NCBI GenBank assembly: GCA_903832025.1
Contig: CAIKZY010000152.1
Coordinates: 1-37,968 of the forward strand
DNA from: an uncultured Actinomycetes bacterium
GTDB taxonomy: Bacteria > Actinomycetota > Actinomycetes > S36-B12
Direction: 5' to 3'
Length of the DNA: 37,968 nt
In this document: positions 15,477-22,258 of the stretch, one piece after another
Layout of the letters: each line of letters begins with the position of its first letter
Numbering within the stretch: the stretch's first letter is position 1
Position numbers and translations under genes: made by a program
Notes under the pieces: model-generated
What the model was told of the DNA's origin: nothing
What the model saw: only the letters and a program-made list of their open reading frames with translations
Databases searched by the model: none

Positions 15477-15549
15477 GGGGCTGTGGCGCAGTTGGTAGCG
15501 CGTCTCGTTCGCAATGAGAAGGCCAGGGGTTCGAATCCCCTCAGCTCCA
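15477..15549 (+). tRNA. tRNA-Ala (anticodon CGC)
   Basis: The cloverleaf can be folded by eye. Acceptor GGGGCTG (15477-15483) pairs with CAGCTCC (15542-15548) with one G-U pair and discriminator A. The anticodon loop is TTCGCAA between TCTCG and TGAGA. The T arm is GGGG-TTCGAAT-CCCC-like. The anticodon CGC reads GCG alanine codons. The CCA end is not fully encoded (ACC then G). A TACCCT -10 box at 15459-15464 gives a leader of about six bases. Confidence 0.95.
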
Positions 15550-15753
15550 CCGAGGTGAAGATGCAGCGCGCCGATGCCAGCCGGCGGCCCAGGGGCGCAA
15601 CCTCTCGGCATCCGTTCGCTGGCTGTATCGGCGGCCCGTGATCCAGGGCGAGGCCGGACCCTGTGGCTGTTTCGGTGACCGCTCAACACGCTGCGTGCGA
15701 TTGGTTCGCGAACTCGGCGCGCCCACTCCAGGTCAGGGCAATGCCATGGCAAA

Positions 15754-15797
15754 ACTTGCATAATGCAAGTGAAAAAGTAACTTGCAGTTCACAAGTT
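15754..15797 (+). promoter_or_regulatory. Two 17-bp palindromic operators over the SDR promoter (probable HxlR sites)
   Basis: Operator 1 is the perfect palindrome ACTTGCATAATGCAAGT (15754-15770). Operator 2, ACTTGCAGTTCACAAGT (15780-15796, extended by one base pair on each side), has the same layout, 26 bp downstream. A candidate -35 CTTGCA (15755-15760) lies in operator 1, and after 17 bases a -10 TAACTT (15778-15783) overlaps operator 2. A regulator bound here would cover both promoter elements. The matching site at 17343 and the HxlR gene between them suggest that HxlR is the ligand; this is inference. Confidence 0.7.
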
Positions 15798-15827
15798 AAA
15801 TGTGGACTCCGGAAAGGGGCGACTCAG

Positions 15828-16826
15828 ATGGCGGATCGGGTGCTGGTGTCGGGCGTCAGCGGCTACATCGGACAGCATTGCGCGGCCGAGCTGTTGAATC
15901 GGGGCTTTGAGGTGGTGGGGACCGTGCGCTCCTTGGCCAAGGTCGAAACCACCAGGAGTGCCATTGCCGCAGCCGCTCCCGTGGATCGGTTCACCTGCGT
16001 GGAGGCTGATTTGCTCAGCGACAGCGACAGCGACAGCGGCTGGGCTGAGGCGCTGCACGGGTGCGGGTCTGTCATGCACGTGGCATCACCGTTCATCCTG
16101 GCTGCGCCGAAAGATGACAACGCATTGATCGCGCCGGCTGTGGACGGAACCAGACGAGTGATCAAGGCCGCCCAGGATGCGAATGTGCGGCGAATGGTGC
16201 TCACCTCATCCACCTTTGCCATGATCGCAGGTCGCGGAACCGGTCGCTTCGGGCCCGAGACGTGGTCAGATACCGATGCGCGCATCGGCACGTATGCCAA
16301 GAGCAAGACCCTTGCCGAACGGGCCGCGTGGGCGGAAACCGTTGGCAGCGCGATGGAGCTCGTGGTGATCAACCCTGGCGCGGTCTATGGCCCGGCGCTG
16401 GGAGCCCAGGTCGACAGCGAAAGCATGTCGCTCATGACCAACTTGATTGGGGGTCGCATCCCGATGCTGCCGGATATCGCCATGGGCATGGTGGATGTGC
16501 GCGACGTGGCGCGACTGCATGCCGAGGCATTGACGAGCCCCGCTGCGGCCGGCCACCGTTTCATCGCGGCCACGGCGGAGCCGGTCAGCATGATGCACTT
16601 CGCCACCGTGCTGCGCGATGCAGGCTATGCCAAGGTTCCCTCACGCAAGGCCCCGAATGCCGCATTGCGCGTGATGAGCATGTTCGATCGGCAGACACGG
16701 GGCATGGTGCCGTTCCTCGGCCAGAAGGCGTCCTTCGACAACCAGGCCACATTTGCAATACTGGACTGGAAGCCGACTCCCATCGAGACGTCAATCGTGG
16801 AGATGGCGGCATCGATCACTGGCTAG
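15828..16826 (+). CDS. NAD(P)-dependent extended SDR (dihydroflavonol-4-reductase / aldehyde-reductase type)
   Basis: The protein has 332 residues. The Rossmann motif is VLVSGVSGYIGQH (GxxGxxG at about 9-15). The catalytic pair is Y156 and K160 in TYAKSK, with an SST serine near 128. The pattern of DGTRRVIKAA and the MVLTSSTFA strand fits reductases acting on aldehydes or ketones of bulky substrates. ATG 15828 has GGAAAGGGG about 8 bases upstream; the longer frame from 15663 would run through the promoter and operators. An in-frame hexanucleotide repeat (AGCGAC, 16017-16034) encodes an SDSDSDS stretch at about 64-70. The HxlR gene follows with nine bases between, so they form an operon. Confidence 0.82.
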   Translation: MADRVLVSGVSGYIGQHCAAELLNRGFEVVGTVRSLAKVETTRSAIAAAAPVDRFTCVEADLLSDSDSDSGWAEALHGCGSVMHVASPFILAAPKDDNALIAPAVDGTRRVIKAAQDANVRRMVLTSSTFAMIAGRGTGRFGPETWSDTDARIGTYAKSKTLAERAAWAETVGSAMELVVINPGAVYGPALGAQVDSESMSLMTNLIGGRIPMLPDIAMGMVDVRDVARLHAEALTSPAAAGHRFIAATAEPVSMMHFATVLRDAGYAKVPSRKAPNAALRVMSMFDRQTRGMVPFLGQKASFDNQATFAILDWKPTPIETSIVEMAASITG

Positions 16827-16834
16827 GAGGCTGG

Positions 16835-17203
16835 GTGGGCACGCAATCTAGGTCGCAGAGCCTTGACTGGCGTTCGGTGTGCTCCATTACCACCGGGCTT
16901 GATGTGATCGGGGATAAATGGTCACTGCTCATCGTGCGTGACTTGATTGCGCATGGCACGCGCACGTACTCGGAGTTTCGCGACGCCGCAGAGCATGTGT
17001 CCACCAATATTCTCGCCGACAGACTTCGGCTCTTGTCATCCCTGGGAATCATTGAGCGCACCAACCCTGGAGCTGCAGCACGCAATAACGCCTATCGCCT
17101 CACCGAAAGCGGCGCCGCTTTGCGACCGGTGCTGGAAGATATCGGCAAGTGGTCGCAAAAGTATCTCCGGCCGTTTCACGCCGCCATGGTTGACAGCGTC
17201 TGA
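16835..17203 (+). CDS. HxlR-family (MarR/DUF24) winged-helix transcriptional regulator
   Basis: The protein has 122 residues. The HxlR core is clear: VCSITTGLDVIGDKWSLLIVRDL (about 15-37), EFRDAAEHVSTNILADRLRLLSSLGIIER as recognition helix and wing start (about 46-75), YRLTESGAAL (about 87-96). C16 occupies the conserved N-terminal cysteine that senses electrophiles, quinones or hypochlorite in YodB, QorR and HypR; whether it does so here is unknown. GTG 16835 has AGGAGG only four bases upstream, overlapping the SDR stop. It is co-transcribed with the SDR and probably controls its own operon and the DUF1330 gene through ACTTGCA-type palindromes. Confidence 0.88.
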   Translation: MGTQSRSQSLDWRSVCSITTGLDVIGDKWSLLIVRDLIAHGTRTYSEFRDAAEHVSTNILADRLRLLSSLGIIERTNPGAAARNNAYRLTESGAALRPVLEDIGKWSQKYLRPFHAAMVDSV

Positions 17204-17342
17204 TCGACGGTGATGCCCGGCGCAGATCGCGCGGATGAGTTGCACGCGCAGGTGCGCCCACAGGGTTGCTCGTGGACGTGCGGTTCGGGATCTCACGATG
17301 GTCGCTCACGATCTCCTTTCGGCTATCGGGAAGTGGTCAATC

Positions 17343-17386
17343 GCTTGCAAAAAGCAAGTCACTGAGATAGATTGTGAGATGCAAGC
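17343..17386 (+). promoter_or_regulatory. HxlR-type operator and promoter of the DUF1330-like gene
   Basis: GCTTGCAAAAAGCAAGT (17343-17359) has the same 17-bp layout as the operators before the SDR. CTTGCA (17344-17349) also serves as a candidate -35, and ATAGAT/TAGATT (17367-17373) as the -10 after 17-18 bases. A degenerate second site ending ATGCAAGC (17379-17386) lies about 27 bp downstream. Both promoters thus have the -35 inside the left operator arm. Confidence 0.62.
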
Positions 17387-17412
17387 CAATCAGTCGATGA
17401 GGAGCAACCGCA

Positions 17413-17724
17413 ATGGCGGACACGCCCAAGCCTGCATACGGACTCGTGCAGATCAATATCAAGAATCCTGAAGAGTTCATGGAGCGCTACGCGCAGCACG
17501 TCTTTCCCATTCTTGCGGCGTGGGGAGTGGAGATGATCGCTGGTTCGATGACGCCGGTCACCAAGGAAGGAACTTTCAGCGGAAATTGGGCAGCTGTCCT
17601 GCAATTCCCCAGCATGGAGGTTGCAGAAGCCTGGTACGCATCGGCAGACTACGAACCCTTCAGGGACCTGCGGATCAACGAACTGACGGACTCCGGCAGC
17701 CTGGTCTTCGTCGAGGGCCGCTGA
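17413..17724 (+). CDS. DUF1330-like dimeric alpha-beta barrel protein
   Basis: The protein has 103 residues. YGLVQINIKNPEEFMERYAQHVFPILAAWGVEMIAGSMTP, then FPSMEVAEAWYASADYEPFRDLRINELTDSGSLVFVEG, matches the DUF1330 family: small ferredoxin-like-fold proteins whose activity is mostly unknown. GAGGAG lies about 8 bases before the ATG. It stands 209 bases behind the HxlR gene with its own operator-covered promoter, so it looks like part of the HxlR regulon rather than a read-through gene. A role in removing or modifying the inducing compound would fit, but this is speculation. Confidence 0.8.
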   Translation: MADTPKPAYGLVQINIKNPEEFMERYAQHVFPILAAWGVEMIAGSMTPVTKEGTFSGNWAAVLQFPSMEVAEAWYASADYEPFRDLRINELTDSGSLVFVEGR

Positions 17725-18072
17725 CCTCACCAGCAGTAGTTGGTGGGTCAGCCTGAAGGCGCCGTGGCTGTTTCACCGGCCGCAGCTGTCCAGTCGGGAA
17801 CACCGCAGCAGTGTGATCAGAACTCACCCGTGATGGGGGGAGGCTGATACGTGCGCGGCCACGGGGTGGCATAGCGGGCATTGCCCTTGGCGGTGAACGC
17901 CGCAACAACCGCTGCCCATGTCACGGGTCGCTTGCAACCTCGGCTGTGCGACGGGAGGAACTCCCGACGCTGTCCAAAAGGCTTCGTGGGCACCGGGCAT
18001 GCGCGCCGACGCGCCCGGCACTACCGTTGCGACCAACGCTCCTGTCGGCAACGAGGTAAGGGCTCTGCTCAC
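17725..18072. other. 348-bp region without a recognisable gene
   Basis: No coding sequence stands out on either strand. Small GC-rich hairpins are seen: GGGAG-GAA-CTCCC near 17953-17966, and CCGGGC with GCCCGG around 17996-18022. One CTTGCA half-operator lies near 17931-17936 without a partner arm. No convincing promoter was found for the exporter that follows. It may be a 5' leader or decayed sequence. Confidence 0.35.
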
Positions 18073-19755
18073 ATGTCACATGCACCGACCGGATCGACAA
18101 AGCCACCGTGGGGACTGCTCGTCGTCATCCTGGCTGCAACCTTCATGCAGTTGCTGGACGTCAGCATCGTCAACGTGGCCTCCCCGGATATCCAGCGCAC
18201 GCTGGGGGCTTCCTATGGCCTGGTGCAATTGGTGCTGGCCGGATATCAGCTGGGCTTTGCCTGCTCCTTGATCCTCGCGGCTCGGCTGGGCGACATCTTC
18301 GGTCGACGTCGACTGTTCTTGATGGGCATGGCCGTGTTCACCATTGCCAGCATCACGTGCGGGCTGTCGGTGAATATCCAGATGCTCATCGCCTCGCGTG
18401 TGCTTCAAGGGGTCGGCTCGGCATTGATGTTCTCCCAAGTGCTGGCCTTGATCCAGGTCCTGTTCCAGCCTAAGGATCGCGCCGCGGCCTTTGGCGGCTA
18501 CGGCACCGCAATCGGCTTGGGCTCGATCATGGGGCCGCTGGCCGGCGGCCTGCTGATCCAGGCGAACCTGACCGCTGACCCGTGGCGTGCGATCTTCCTG
18601 GTCAATGTCCCCATTGGCGTTGCCGCCTTCGTCATTGCCGCCTTGCGGCTGCCGGAATCCAAGGCAGAGCAGCGGCCGGGCCTGGATTTCACCGGTGCCA
18701 TCTTGTCGGCGATTGGCCTTGGCCTGTTGATCTATCCGCTGTCGGAGGGCAGGACCTATGGCTGGCCCGCCTGGTCCCTCCTGATGTTGGGCGGCGCGGT
18801 GGTCGTCCTGGCGGTACTGGTGATGTACGAGCGGCGCCTGGCACGGGCCGGCGGCGATCCGATCTTTGATACCCGACTGTTCGCCGATCGCGCCTTCCGC
18901 GATGGCGCGCTGCTGAATTTCGTCTTCTACCTCGGCATTCCATCCTTCTTCTTCACGATCTCGATCTACCTGCAGGTTGGCCAGGGCTTCAGTGCCCTGC
19001 AGGCCGGCCTCACCACATTCGCCTATGCCCTGGGCGCGGCCCTGGTCTCCCGCCGAGCCGGCGGCCTGGCCAAGAAGATGGGTGCAGGGGTGCTGGTGAT
19101 GGGCAGCGTCATGATGACCGTGGCCATGGCGGGGTTGGTGGCCACTGCACACCTGGCCGGGTTCGCGCCGAAGATGTGGTACTTCTGGCCCGGCATGCTG
19201 CTTGCCGGGCTGGCTTTCGGATTCTTCGTGCCCACCGTGATCGGTGCCGTCCTGGCAAACGTCCACCTGCAGCGAGCCGGATCGGCATCGGGGGTCCTGG
19301 CGACCTCGCAGCAAATCGGTGGAGCGGTCGGTGTGGCCATCCTGGGCATCGTGTTCTTCGGCTTCATCAGCGGCCACGCTCCCACCTCGGCGGCCAACGC
19401 TGCGCCGGCATTGCACGCCCAGCTCACCAGTCAGGGCATACCGGCCGGCGCCAGCGATGCGGCCGTTGCGCGCTTCCAGCATTGCTTTGTGGTGCAAAGC
19501 CGAAGCGTTGATCCCACATTGGCACCTCCGGGATGTCGCACGGCTGCAAGCCCGGCCGCGGCTCAGGCCTTCACCGCGGCCGGCACGCAGGCCAATGCCA
19601 CCAACTTCACCGGGGCCATGCAGGTTGGGCTCGGTGCCGAGGTGCTGGTGTTCGCGGTGACCGTTGTGCTGTCGGGCTTGCTGCTAGCGGAGGAGCGCCG
19701 CAATCGCGGGGCGCGCTCGCAGGTGGATGCCCAGGCGGGCCTGGTCGGTCACTAG
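18073..19755 (+). CDS. MFS transporter, DHA2 (EmrB/QacA-type, 14 TM) drug:proton antiporter
   Basis: The protein has 560 residues. TM1 carries LLDVSIVNVASPDIQRTLG (about 26-44). Motif A LGDIFGRRRLF follows TM2 (about 74-84). The TM5 antiporter motif is GYGTAIGLGSIMGPLAGG (about 142-159). Late in the protein, between the last two helices, is an outside loop of about 100 residues rich in Ala, Ser and Pro with two cysteines, longer than usual. ATG 18073 is the first start in front of TM1; only an AGGG about 12 bases away serves as a ribosome site. The frame runs back to 17881 but is not MFS-like there. Its position beside an HxlR regulon suggests export of a toxic compound. The last four bases overlap the convergent gene. 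Confidence 0.83.
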   Translation: MSHAPTGSTKPPWGLLVVILAATFMQLLDVSIVNVASPDIQRTLGASYGLVQLVLAGYQLGFACSLILAARLGDIFGRRRLFLMGMAVFTIASITCGLSVNIQMLIASRVLQGVGSALMFSQVLALIQVLFQPKDRAAAFGGYGTAIGLGSIMGPLAGGLLIQANLTADPWRAIFLVNVPIGVAAFVIAALRLPESKAEQRPGLDFTGAILSAIGLGLLIYPLSEGRTYGWPAWSLLMLGGAVVVLAVLVMYERRLARAGGDPIFDTRLFADRAFRDGALLNFVFYLGIPSFFFTISIYLQVGQGFSALQAGLTTFAYALGAALVSRRAGGLAKKMGAGVLVMGSVMMTVAMAGLVATAHLAGFAPKMWYFWPGMLLAGLAFGFFVPTVIGAVLANVHLQRAGSASGVLATSQQIGGAVGVAILGIVFFGFISGHAPTSAANAAPALHAQLTSQGIPAGASDAAVARFQHCFVVQSRSVDPTLAPPGCRTAASPAAAQAFTAAGTQANATNFTGAMQVGLGAEVLVFAVTVVLSGLLLAEERRNRGARSQVDAQAGLVGH

Positions 19756-21359
19756 ACCCAGGTAGGGCTCCACATGCGCAAGTGCCATGAGTCGTAGGGC
19801 AGCAGCTGTCCGGTCCACACCGGATAGAACCACCACGCAGCCACCACGGCCGCCACGACGAATGCCCCCGCGGCCAGTGCGCCGATGCGGCGTCGGCGTT
19901 GCTGCATGGCGATCATCCGTGCACGGTCTGGGTCATCGGAGTCGGTGGCTGACTGCGGTGTTGGTCCGATGATGGCCCCGCACGTCAGTGCAACCGCCAT
20001 CATGACAAATGGGCTGTAGACCACCGTGTAGAACGTGAAGATCGTCCGATTCAGGTACAGCATCCACGGCAGCCATCCTGCGGCGATCCCCACCATGATC
20101 GCCGCTGCCCGCCAGTCGCGCCTGGCCAGCCAGCGCCACAGCATGTAGACCATCGCCGCGACTCCGCCCCACCACAGGATCGGGTTGCCTAGGGCCACGA
20201 CCTCTGCTGCGCAGTTGGACACGGTGCATCCATGGGAGTGGTCCGTAACCGACAGCCAGTAGAAGGATGTCGGCCTGGCCATGAATGCCCAGCCCAACGG
20301 GTTCGCCGAATAGGCATGGGGAGTGTCCAGGCCGATATGAAAATGCCAGGCCTCAGCGTGGTAGTGCCACAGGGAGCGCAACGCAGCAGGAATGATGCTT
20401 CCGGGCTGGGAATCTGCCCACGTGCGATCCCATCCGCCCGAGGTAGCCAACCAGCCGGTCCACGTCGACACATACGCCGCCACGGCAACAGCGAACATCG
20501 ACACCGCGGAAATGGGCAGATCGCGAAGGATCGTCGCCCGCCACGGCATGCGCACCCCGATGGCCCGACGTAATCCGATGTCCCACACGACGGTCAAGAT
20601 GATGAAGGCCGCCAGGAAATAGATGCCCGACCACTTCACTCCACAGGCCAGGCCCAGGCATAGCGCGGCAGCCCACCGCAACGGGCGAAAGCCAAGGCGC
20701 GGACCGAAGTCGCTGTCCGCCAAGCCATTGACGGCCACCCACGCCGCCATTCTCGCTCGAGTCCGATCGCGGTCCACCACCAGCAATCCGAACGCCGCCA
20801 GGACCCAAAAGGTCAGCACCATGTCCAGCAGTCCGGTTCGGGACATCACCAGGTGAATGCCGTCGATCGCCAAGAATCCACCGGCCAGGGTTCCGACCAG
20901 GTCACTGCGCGTCAGGCGACGGGCGATCCGAGCGGTCATCAAGACCGTGGCAATGCCCAGCACGCACACAGCGATACGCCAGCCGAATGGCGTGGCCCCG
21001 AAGAGGAACTCCCCGACAGCGATCGTCCATTTCCCCAGGGGCGGGTGCACCACGAACTCAGGGCCGCTGCCGAAGATGCCCAGCGTGTGCCAGTTGCCGT
21101 TACTTGCCAGCAGGATCTCGTTGGCCTTGTCCACCATCACGCGCTCGTAGCCAAACCGAAGCAGGCTCAGGGCATCCTTTGGGTAGTACGTCTCGTCGAA
21201 GATCACCGCATGAGGAAGACCGAGGTTCCACAGGCGCAACACGGCCGCCACCACGGTGACGGCAAGAGGCCCGATCCAGCCGTGCCATCCACGTGATGGC
21301 ATCGCCGTGACCAGCAGGGCCGGCACGTCTTCGGACTTCGGCTGCACGGCGATCTCCAC
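19752..21359 (-). CDS. Protein O-mannosyltransferase (PMT / GT39 family, Rv1002c-like)
   Basis: This 535-residue multi-pass membrane enzyme should move mannose from polyprenyl-phosphate-mannose to Ser/Thr of secreted proteins. The catalytic acidic pair lies in the first extracellular loop, AVIFDETYYPKDALSL (D55, E56), followed by VHPPLGKW (about 92-99) and the IDGIHLVMSRTGLLDM loop. About ten hydrophobic helices follow. The GTG start at 21359 is exactly six bases after TACGAT on the minus strand, so the mRNA should be leaderless; a longer frame to 21449 runs into rsmI. Synteny with mycobacterial Rv1002c-Rv1003 supports the call. Confidence 0.9.
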   Translation of the reverse strand: MEIAVQPKSEDVPALLVTAMPSRGWHGWIGPLAVTVVAAVLRLWNLGLPHAVIFDETYYPKDALSLLRFGYERVMVDKANEILLASNGNWHTLGIFGSGPEFVVHPPLGKWTIAVGEFLFGATPFGWRIAVCVLGIATVLMTARIARRLTRSDLVGTLAGGFLAIDGIHLVMSRTGLLDMVLTFWVLAAFGLLVVDRDRTRARMAAWVAVNGLADSDFGPRLGFRPLRWAAALCLGLACGVKWSGIYFLAAFIILTVVWDIGLRRAIGVRMPWRATILRDLPISAVSMFAVAVAAYVSTWTGWLATSGGWDRTWADSQPGSIIPAALRSLWHYHAEAWHFHIGLDTPHAYSANPLGWAFMARPTSFYWLSVTDHSHGCTVSNCAAEVVALGNPILWWGGVAAMVYMLWRWLARRDWRAAAIMVGIAAGWLPWMLYLNRTIFTFYTVVYSPFVMMAVALTCGAIIGPTPQSATDSDDPDRARMIAMQQRRRRIGALAAGAFVVAAVVAAWWFYPVWTGQLLPYDSWHLRMWSPTWV

Positions 21360-21388
21360 CTGGCCATCGTAAGTGCCACAATGACGCG
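21360..21388. promoter_or_regulatory. Divergent leaderless promoters of the mannosyltransferase and rsmI genes
   Basis: On the minus strand TACGAT (21366-21371) is six bases before GTG 21359. On the plus strand CACAAT (21377-21382) is six bases before GTG 21389. Only 29 bases separate the two start codons. Confidence 0.55.
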
Positions 21389-22258
21389 GTGACTGACGGC
21401 GGGCAAGTGATCTTGGCGGCCACGCCCCTCGGCAACCCCGCTGATGCATCTGCCCGACTTCGCGAGGTGCTCCAAACCGCCGACGTCATTGCCGCTGAGG
21501 ACACCCGAAGGCTGCATCGATTGGCAACGGATCTTGGCGTGAGCATCACCGCGCCCGTGGTGTCCTATTTCGAAGGCAATGAGAGCACTCGCACCACCGG
21601 CTTGGTGCAGCAGGCGCTGGCCGGGGCCACCATCGCGGTGGTCACCGACGCCGGCATGCCCTCGGTCAGCGATCCGGGATTCCGGTTGGTCAGCGAGGCC
21701 ATTGCCGCAGGCGTGACCGTCACGGCAGTCCCCGGCCCATCCGCAGTATTGACCGCCTTGGCGGTGTCCGGACTGCCGGTCGATCGCTTTTGCTTTGAGG
21801 GTTTCCTGCCGCGCAAGGAAGGCCCCCGCACGCAGCGCCTGGCCGAGCTTGCCGACGAGCCGCGCACGATGGTGTTCTTCGAGGCTCCGCACCGACTCGC
21901 GGACTCCGCCGCTGCGATGGCTGTCGCGTTCGGTCCGGACCGATCGGCCGCAATCTGTCGAGAGCTCACCAAGACGTATGAGCAAGTCATCCGCGGACCT
22001 CTGTCCGAGCTTGCGCAGTGGGCCACGGGGGAGGTGCTGGGGGAGATCACGGTGGTGGTGTCGGGGGTTGTCGATGAGCCGGTGGCAGCCGACCAGTCGC
22101 AGTCGTGGGTGGCGCTGGCCGAAGAGCTCCAGCGACAGGGCATCGATCGCAAGCAGGCCATCGCCGAGGTAGCCCGGCGAAACGGAGTCCCCAAGCGCCA
22201 GGTCTACGCCGCAATGGTGCTGGCAAAGCCCCAACGGCTCGACGAATCCGGCATGTGA
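21389..22258 (+). CDS. rsmI: 16S rRNA (cytidine(1402)-2'-O)-methyltransferase
   Basis: The 289-residue SAM-dependent enzyme adds the 2'-O-methyl group to C1402 in the decoding centre of 16S rRNA. The tetrapyrrole-methylase-like fold shows VILAATPLGNPADAS (about 7-21), IAAEDTRR (about 36-43), VVTDAGMPSVSDPGFRLV (about 87-104), VPGPSAVLTAL and FEGFLPRK. The C-terminal part has the helical ELQRQGIDRKQAIAEVARRNGVPKRQVY segment. The GTG start has a leaderless-type CACAAT box. It ends 23 bases before metG. Confidence 0.92.
   Translation: MTDGGQVILAATPLGNPADASARLREVLQTADVIAAEDTRRLHRLATDLGVSITAPVVSYFEGNESTRTTGLVQQALAGATIAVVTDAGMPSVSDPGFRLVSEAIAAGVTVTAVPGPSAVLTALAVSGLPVDRFCFEGFLPRKEGPRTQRLAELADEPRTMVFFEAPHRLADSAAAMAVAFGPDRSAAICRELTKTYEQVIRGPLSELAQWATGEVLGEITVVVSGVVDEPVAADQSQSWVALAEELQRQGIDRKQAIAEVARRNGVPKRQVYAAMVLAKPQRLDESGM

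Follow-up and report, generated by a model that had tools for sequence, protein, structure and literature searches.

Do the genes that follow the tRNA-Ala gene in this actinobacterial DNA form a regulon under a single regulator, and what would that regulator sense? The window, the whole 37,968-nucleotide stretch analysed, belongs to a 2.2-Mb genome in 187 contigs that is 98% complete. Between tRNA-Ala(CGC) (15477..15551, + strand), the left edge of the variable interval harbouring the cassette, and a protein mannosyltransferase (PMT) gene convergent to the cassette genes (19752-21449), four genes with Pfam assignments lie on the + strand. They encode an extended SDR of 332 aa (15828..16826), assigned by sequence as a putative NADPH-type carbonyl/aldehyde reductase (DFR/CCR/Gre2-like), an HxlR/DUF24 regulator of 122 aa (16835..17203), a DUF1330 protein of 103 aa (17413..17724), and a DHA2/EmrB-type MFS exporter (18073..19755). 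The HxlR gene has a GTG start, with AGGAGG at 16825, and begins only 8 bp past the SDR stop; SDR and hxlR are therefore likely to share one transcript, making HxlR autoregulated. The G+C content of the SDR gene (0.64) matches that of its neighbours, and that of the HxlR and DUF1330 genes is somewhat lower (0.58).

Two promoters in this interval carry 17-bp operators, annotated without strand. At the SDR-HxlR promoter, operator 1 (15754..15770; ACTTGCATAATGCAAGT) is the perfect palindrome ACTTGC-ATAAT-GCAAGT, and operator 2 (15780..15796; ACTTGCAGTTCACAAGT) starts 26 bp from its start. Upstream of DUF1330, operator 3 (17343..17359; GCTTGCAAAAAGCAAGT) is followed 27 bp on by the degenerate operator 4 (17370..17386), which is backed by relatives. 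An earlier note on this DNA had described three sites of one layout, the 26-bp spacing and the degenerate partner, all of which we confirmed; its proposal that one HxlR serves both promoters through common operators is likewise supported. Our preferred reading, to which we assign a probability of roughly 0.65, is a local HxlR/DUF24 repressor regulon with C16-sensed release and detoxification by the SDR, probably acquired as a unit beside tRNA-Ala. HxlR dimers would bind the tandem operators, 26-27 bp apart at each promoter, with one operator of each pair over the -35 and the other starting at the -10, and would thereby block RNA polymerase. A reactive electrophile or oxidant would probably modify C16, which would end up as an adduct or in a mixed disulfide with a low-molecular-weight thiol (mycothiol, for example), and the repressor would be released. 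To judge from its fold and residues, the induced SDR would use NADPH to reduce a toxic carbonyl compound such as an aldehyde, and the DUF1330 protein may act on a related intermediate. That the local regulon is real, as a further example of the known HxlR/DUF24 type of stress switch, is well supported by the sequence comparisons below.

The regulator matches the HxlR domain (PF01638) with 69.7 bits against a curated cut-off of 20.8 and is the sole HxlR found in the host genome. Palindromic operators at its own and neighbouring promoters, as read from sequence, agree with its placement among HxlR/DUF24 regulators. C16, the single cysteine of the 122-aa protein, lies N-terminal to the domain, does not vary among the 27 aligned homologues, and aligns with Cys11 of Bacillus subtilis HxlR; it is followed by S17 and I18, and most relatives read C-P-I/V/L/M. 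The N-terminal cysteine that the earlier note had linked to electrophile sensing is thus present and sensing is plausible, but the residue is not diagnostic and argues only weakly for such sensing, because it is invariant in the subfamily and the defining residues of YodB and B. subtilis HxlR are missing. YodB (B. subtilis, MarR/DUF24) resembles the regulator in its HxlR-family winged helix, its N-terminal cysteine and its repression of detoxification genes. It uses a C6-C101 disulfide as well as adducts, whereas a single cysteine is found here. Its operator, TACT-N7-AGTA (PMC8063818), shares the palindromic geometry of the sites here, CTTG-N7-CAAG, but differs in the half-site. The YodB disulfide requires a second cysteine (PMC8063818), and a two-cysteine switch of this type is ruled out by the lack of a second, C-terminal cysteine in the 122 residues. 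B. subtilis HxlR, a member of the same Pfam family, is activated by formaldehyde via C11-K13, through a methylene bridge that needs lysine at Cys+2 (PMC7835342). The position of that lysine is occupied by I18 here, and the lack of Cys-x-Lys (C16-S17-I18) rules out a formaldehyde sensor of this type.

Since the YodB disulfide and the formaldehyde bridge both lack needed residues, what remains for HxlR, and is plausible, is a switch in which a single cysteine forms an adduct or a mixed disulfide. Mycothiol is a possible partner of C16, as the genome contains a match to the mycothiol ligase MshC, split over two contigs (C17 and C135). The single cysteine is a QorR-like arrangement: QorR, an HxlR/DUF24 repressor from the actinobacterium Corynebacterium glutamicum, has just one cysteine, near its N-terminus, and its gene adjoins an oxidoreductase gene. 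QorR controls a quinone oxidoreductase; the cassette here has an extended SDR instead. The nearest solved sequence relative of HxlR is PA1607 (PDB 2f2e), in which the aligned cysteine is present; our literature search found no function or operator for it.

What the switch would control is suggested by the SDR and by the genes that accompany related regulators. All SDR motifs read from the sequence are intact, namely GxxGxxG as GVSGYIG (9-15), the NADP-type Arg R34, and Y156-x3-K160, which marks the protein as an extended SDR of the DFR/CCR/Gre2 type. Its nearest solved relatives, cinnamoyl-CoA reductase, dihydroflavonol reductase and the Gre2 methylglyoxal reductase (phmmer E 1e-21 to 1e-29), have the fold family, GxxGxxG, YxxxK and the NADP-type Arg in common with it, but are distant in sequence. 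Genes adjoining related HxlRs with the operator encode GST, MAPEG, glyoxalase, SDR, FAD-binding oxidoreductase, MATE and MFS proteins. Because the operator elsewhere adjoins GST, MAPEG, glyoxalase, FAD-binding oxidoreductase and SDR genes, this comparison supports a detoxification role for the cassette, in line with the earlier proposal: such genes typically lie next to related HxlRs and carry the common operator. The rival that survives best, although we consider it unlikely, holds that HxlR senses a non-covalent ligand, the SDR substrate (e.g. a plant or algal phenolic), that C16 is structural, and that the module is catabolic or serves biotransformation rather than a stress response. The invariance of C16 across the subfamily would suit this alternative, as would the phenylpropanoid and flavonoid carbonyls used by SDR relatives and the fact that DUF1330 is not a known stress protein; the detoxification reading is favoured by the general nature of the other genes under the common operator (GST, MAPEG, glyoxalase) and by the precedent of thiol chemistry in the HxlR family.

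The detoxification cassette had further been proposed to form a sensor-detoxification-export module with the neighbouring MFS gene, a claim that the data for this window do not support. No operator lies in the upstream region of this gene (17725-18072). A search of 33 family relatives for the exporter gave zero matches at E<=1e-60, and the best homologues of this protein in the class are 35-44% identical; those near the cassettes of L034 and L036 are merely 32% identical, and none of the class genomes with the closest MFS homologues is among those with a clade HxlR (E<=1e-25). On these comparisons, the exporter is probably an accessory neighbour outside the regulon; it has a sporadic distribution of its own and is not conserved with the cassette. 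Its inclusion is a doubtful alternative, slightly less probable than the ligand model, and would draw on its location 348 bp downstream on the same strand, on its own absence from the family relatives searched, and on exporters tied to related HxlRs at two other loci, which make the idea reasonable. In L036, an MFS gene is divergent from the SDR gene with operators between them, and in L045:1943-3681, hxlR overlaps a MATE exporter gene by 4 bp, with tandem operators upstream (1645/1672).

The sign of regulation depends on where the operators lie relative to the promoters. For the SDR, the putative promoter TTGCAT-N16-TAACTT has its -35 (15756-15761) within operator 1 and its -10 (15778-15783), a weak one, at the left edge of operator 2. 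The putative DUF1330 promoter, TTGCAA-N17-TAGATT, is arranged likewise, with the -35 (17345-17350) within operator 3 and the -10 (17368-17373) at the left edge of operator 4. The operator sites gave no consensus promoter in a standard sigma-70 scan, so the promoter reading rests on the comparison with relatives, in which the layout is matched. Among 16 tandem promoters of closer relatives, 15 have a TTGnnn in operator 1 that is followed 16-18 nt on by a TAnnnT starting before operator 2; 20,000 spacer shuffles gave a mean of 3.5 and a maximum of 11, although the rows counted are related and the comparison is not a strict probability. The placement of the operators at -35 and -10 in the earlier note thus stands through the layout in relatives, but not through the standard scan. 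Given this overlap of the operators with both likely promoter elements, repression by two HxlR dimers covering the -35 and the -10 is the simplest reading. HxlR could instead activate transcription, as B. subtilis HxlR does at hxlAB, with C16 modification raising DNA binding; the namesake of the family is indeed formaldehyde-activated through C11-K13 (PMC7835342), and C16 aligns with C11. We regard this as improbable, given that the operators overlap the likely -35/-10 in 15 of 16 promoters instead of lying upstream of them, and that the lysine at Cys+2 is absent, both here (I18) and in most relatives (C-P-I/V/L/M).

Repression through these sites presupposes that they are true operators, which we assessed in the genome and in relatives. 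In a scan of the 2.2-Mb genome, perfect ACTTGC-N5-GCAAGT occurs at a single place, 15754, and 3 of the 12 places with <=1 mismatch fall inside this 2-kb locus. The nine remaining places correspond to ~0.008 expected sites per 1971 bp, for which three sites give P ~1e-7, a post hoc value because the pattern was derived from the same sites; the relatives provide the independent test. Nearly all nine outside sites have G+C-rich centres, and those of the locus and of relatives are A/T-rich; five one-mismatch sites fetched from elsewhere in the genome all fall within an open frame of >1.2 kb or overlap one. Matches with two mismatches are at chance level genome-wide (87 vs 96 in the control) and carry no meaning. 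The motif scan that the earlier note had called for thus favours the regulon, the strict sites not being scattered randomly and the loose ones being uninformative.

For the independent test, HxlR homologues were gathered from 84,980 species genomes plus kin; these relatives do not count as independent samples, and a large share of them are MAGs. Across many phyla, the surroundings of related HxlR genes contained 38 operator sites (<=1 mismatch) vs ~0.3 expected in shuffles: 17 vs 0.15 expected at loci whose HxlR is >=55% identical (n=20), 21 vs 0.15 at 38-55% identity (n=39), and zero at six more remote loci. A set of 45 sites gave the consensus ACTTGC[A/G]WWWTGCAAGT, and the usual spacing of tandem sites is 26-29 bp, with other pairs at 19-25, 32 or 37-39 bp. 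Operators 3 and 4 are both aligned in four of five DUF1330 orthologue upstream regions. Operator 1 is kept upstream of most SDR relatives, orthologues included, and the tandem pair upstream of many; in the SDR upstream region of L037, neither operator is clearly present. That the palindromes are chance, or another regulator's sites, would fit the chance-level count of two-mismatch matches but is highly improbable in view of the strong enrichment beside HxlR relatives across phyla and the conserved positions.

There is about an even prospect, in our estimation, that a one-cysteine HxlR subfamily in several phyla uses tandem, promoter-embedded ACTTGC-N5-GCAAGT, so that a reductase-regulator cassette could pass from one phylum to another and stay under the same control. 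If true, a single sequence signature would permit prediction of detoxification targets. The operator itself provides a recognition site, open to experimental test, for a branch of the HxlR family that is widespread although the family has been little studied; it ties that branch to detoxification genes across phyla, and suggests how a small stress cassette could move with its own promoter-embedded control. The operator may be undescribed so far: a literature search, with most subscription journals outside its reach, did not find ACTTGC with HxlR. Several relatives show further arrangements. An Akkermansiaceae MAG contig (L041:1246-1723) has a perfect operator, then a MAPEG gene, then hxlR. A gene that resembles a terminase small subunit (Pfam score below the gathering threshold) and adjoins an HxlR cassette also has tandem operators upstream (L042:3860-4363 and L137:11-514), and a further operator pair (L042:974-1017) precedes a gene for a small secreted-looking protein without a Pfam match. 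In L134:5858-6844, genes for DoxX-like and NADPH-dependent FMN reductase proteins, types that also occur in quinone stress responses, adjoin the SDR-HxlR cassette of G012.

The distribution of the genes bears on the origin of the cassette. Orthologues of the SDR and of HxlR lie side by side and have identical distributions, in 5 of 395 class genomes; DUF1330 orthologues occur in 3 of 390, all within these five, and SDR and HxlR divergences are correlated (Spearman 0.85). Two congeners have zero HxlR matches, and their stretches beyond tRNA-Ala (L129 as far as PMT; L130 without PMT in the stretch read) have no SDR, HxlR, DUF1330 or MFS match; in other family members, PMT comes soon after tRNA-Ala. 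The absence of the cassette from these congeners bears out its description as a self-contained accessory unit within a conserved stretch of housekeeping genes, from tRNA-Ala to PMT. Hosts of several phyla, including the cultured Polynucleobacter bastaniensis, are intermixed in the SDR and HxlR trees, where MAG contigs account for several of the relatives and support is weak at many forks; in the tree of HxlR, the same-family cassettes G012 and G023 group with a Saccharimonadia contig, apart from the HxlR here. As the phyla mix in both trees and the family cassettes group elsewhere, the trees suggest horizontal transfer of the cassette as a unit. Viral contigs searched for HxlR and SDR yielded no relatives, and no phage carriage was seen. 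Among the plasmid matches listed, SDR relatives are ~38-43% identical, none >=60%, and no cassette was seen. The listed ORFs include no integrase, and no convincing att repeat lies near tRNA-Ala. We rejected one att candidate, an imperfect 20-nt direct repeat (15663-15682/17764-17783; GTGGCTGTTTC exact) flanking SDR-HxlR-DUF1330, as one of ten chance-like direct-repeat families. The interval between tRNA-Ala and PMT (window 15551-19752) is a variable spot in the family, and in the congener L129 it contains different small genes, one of them DUF305-like by eye.
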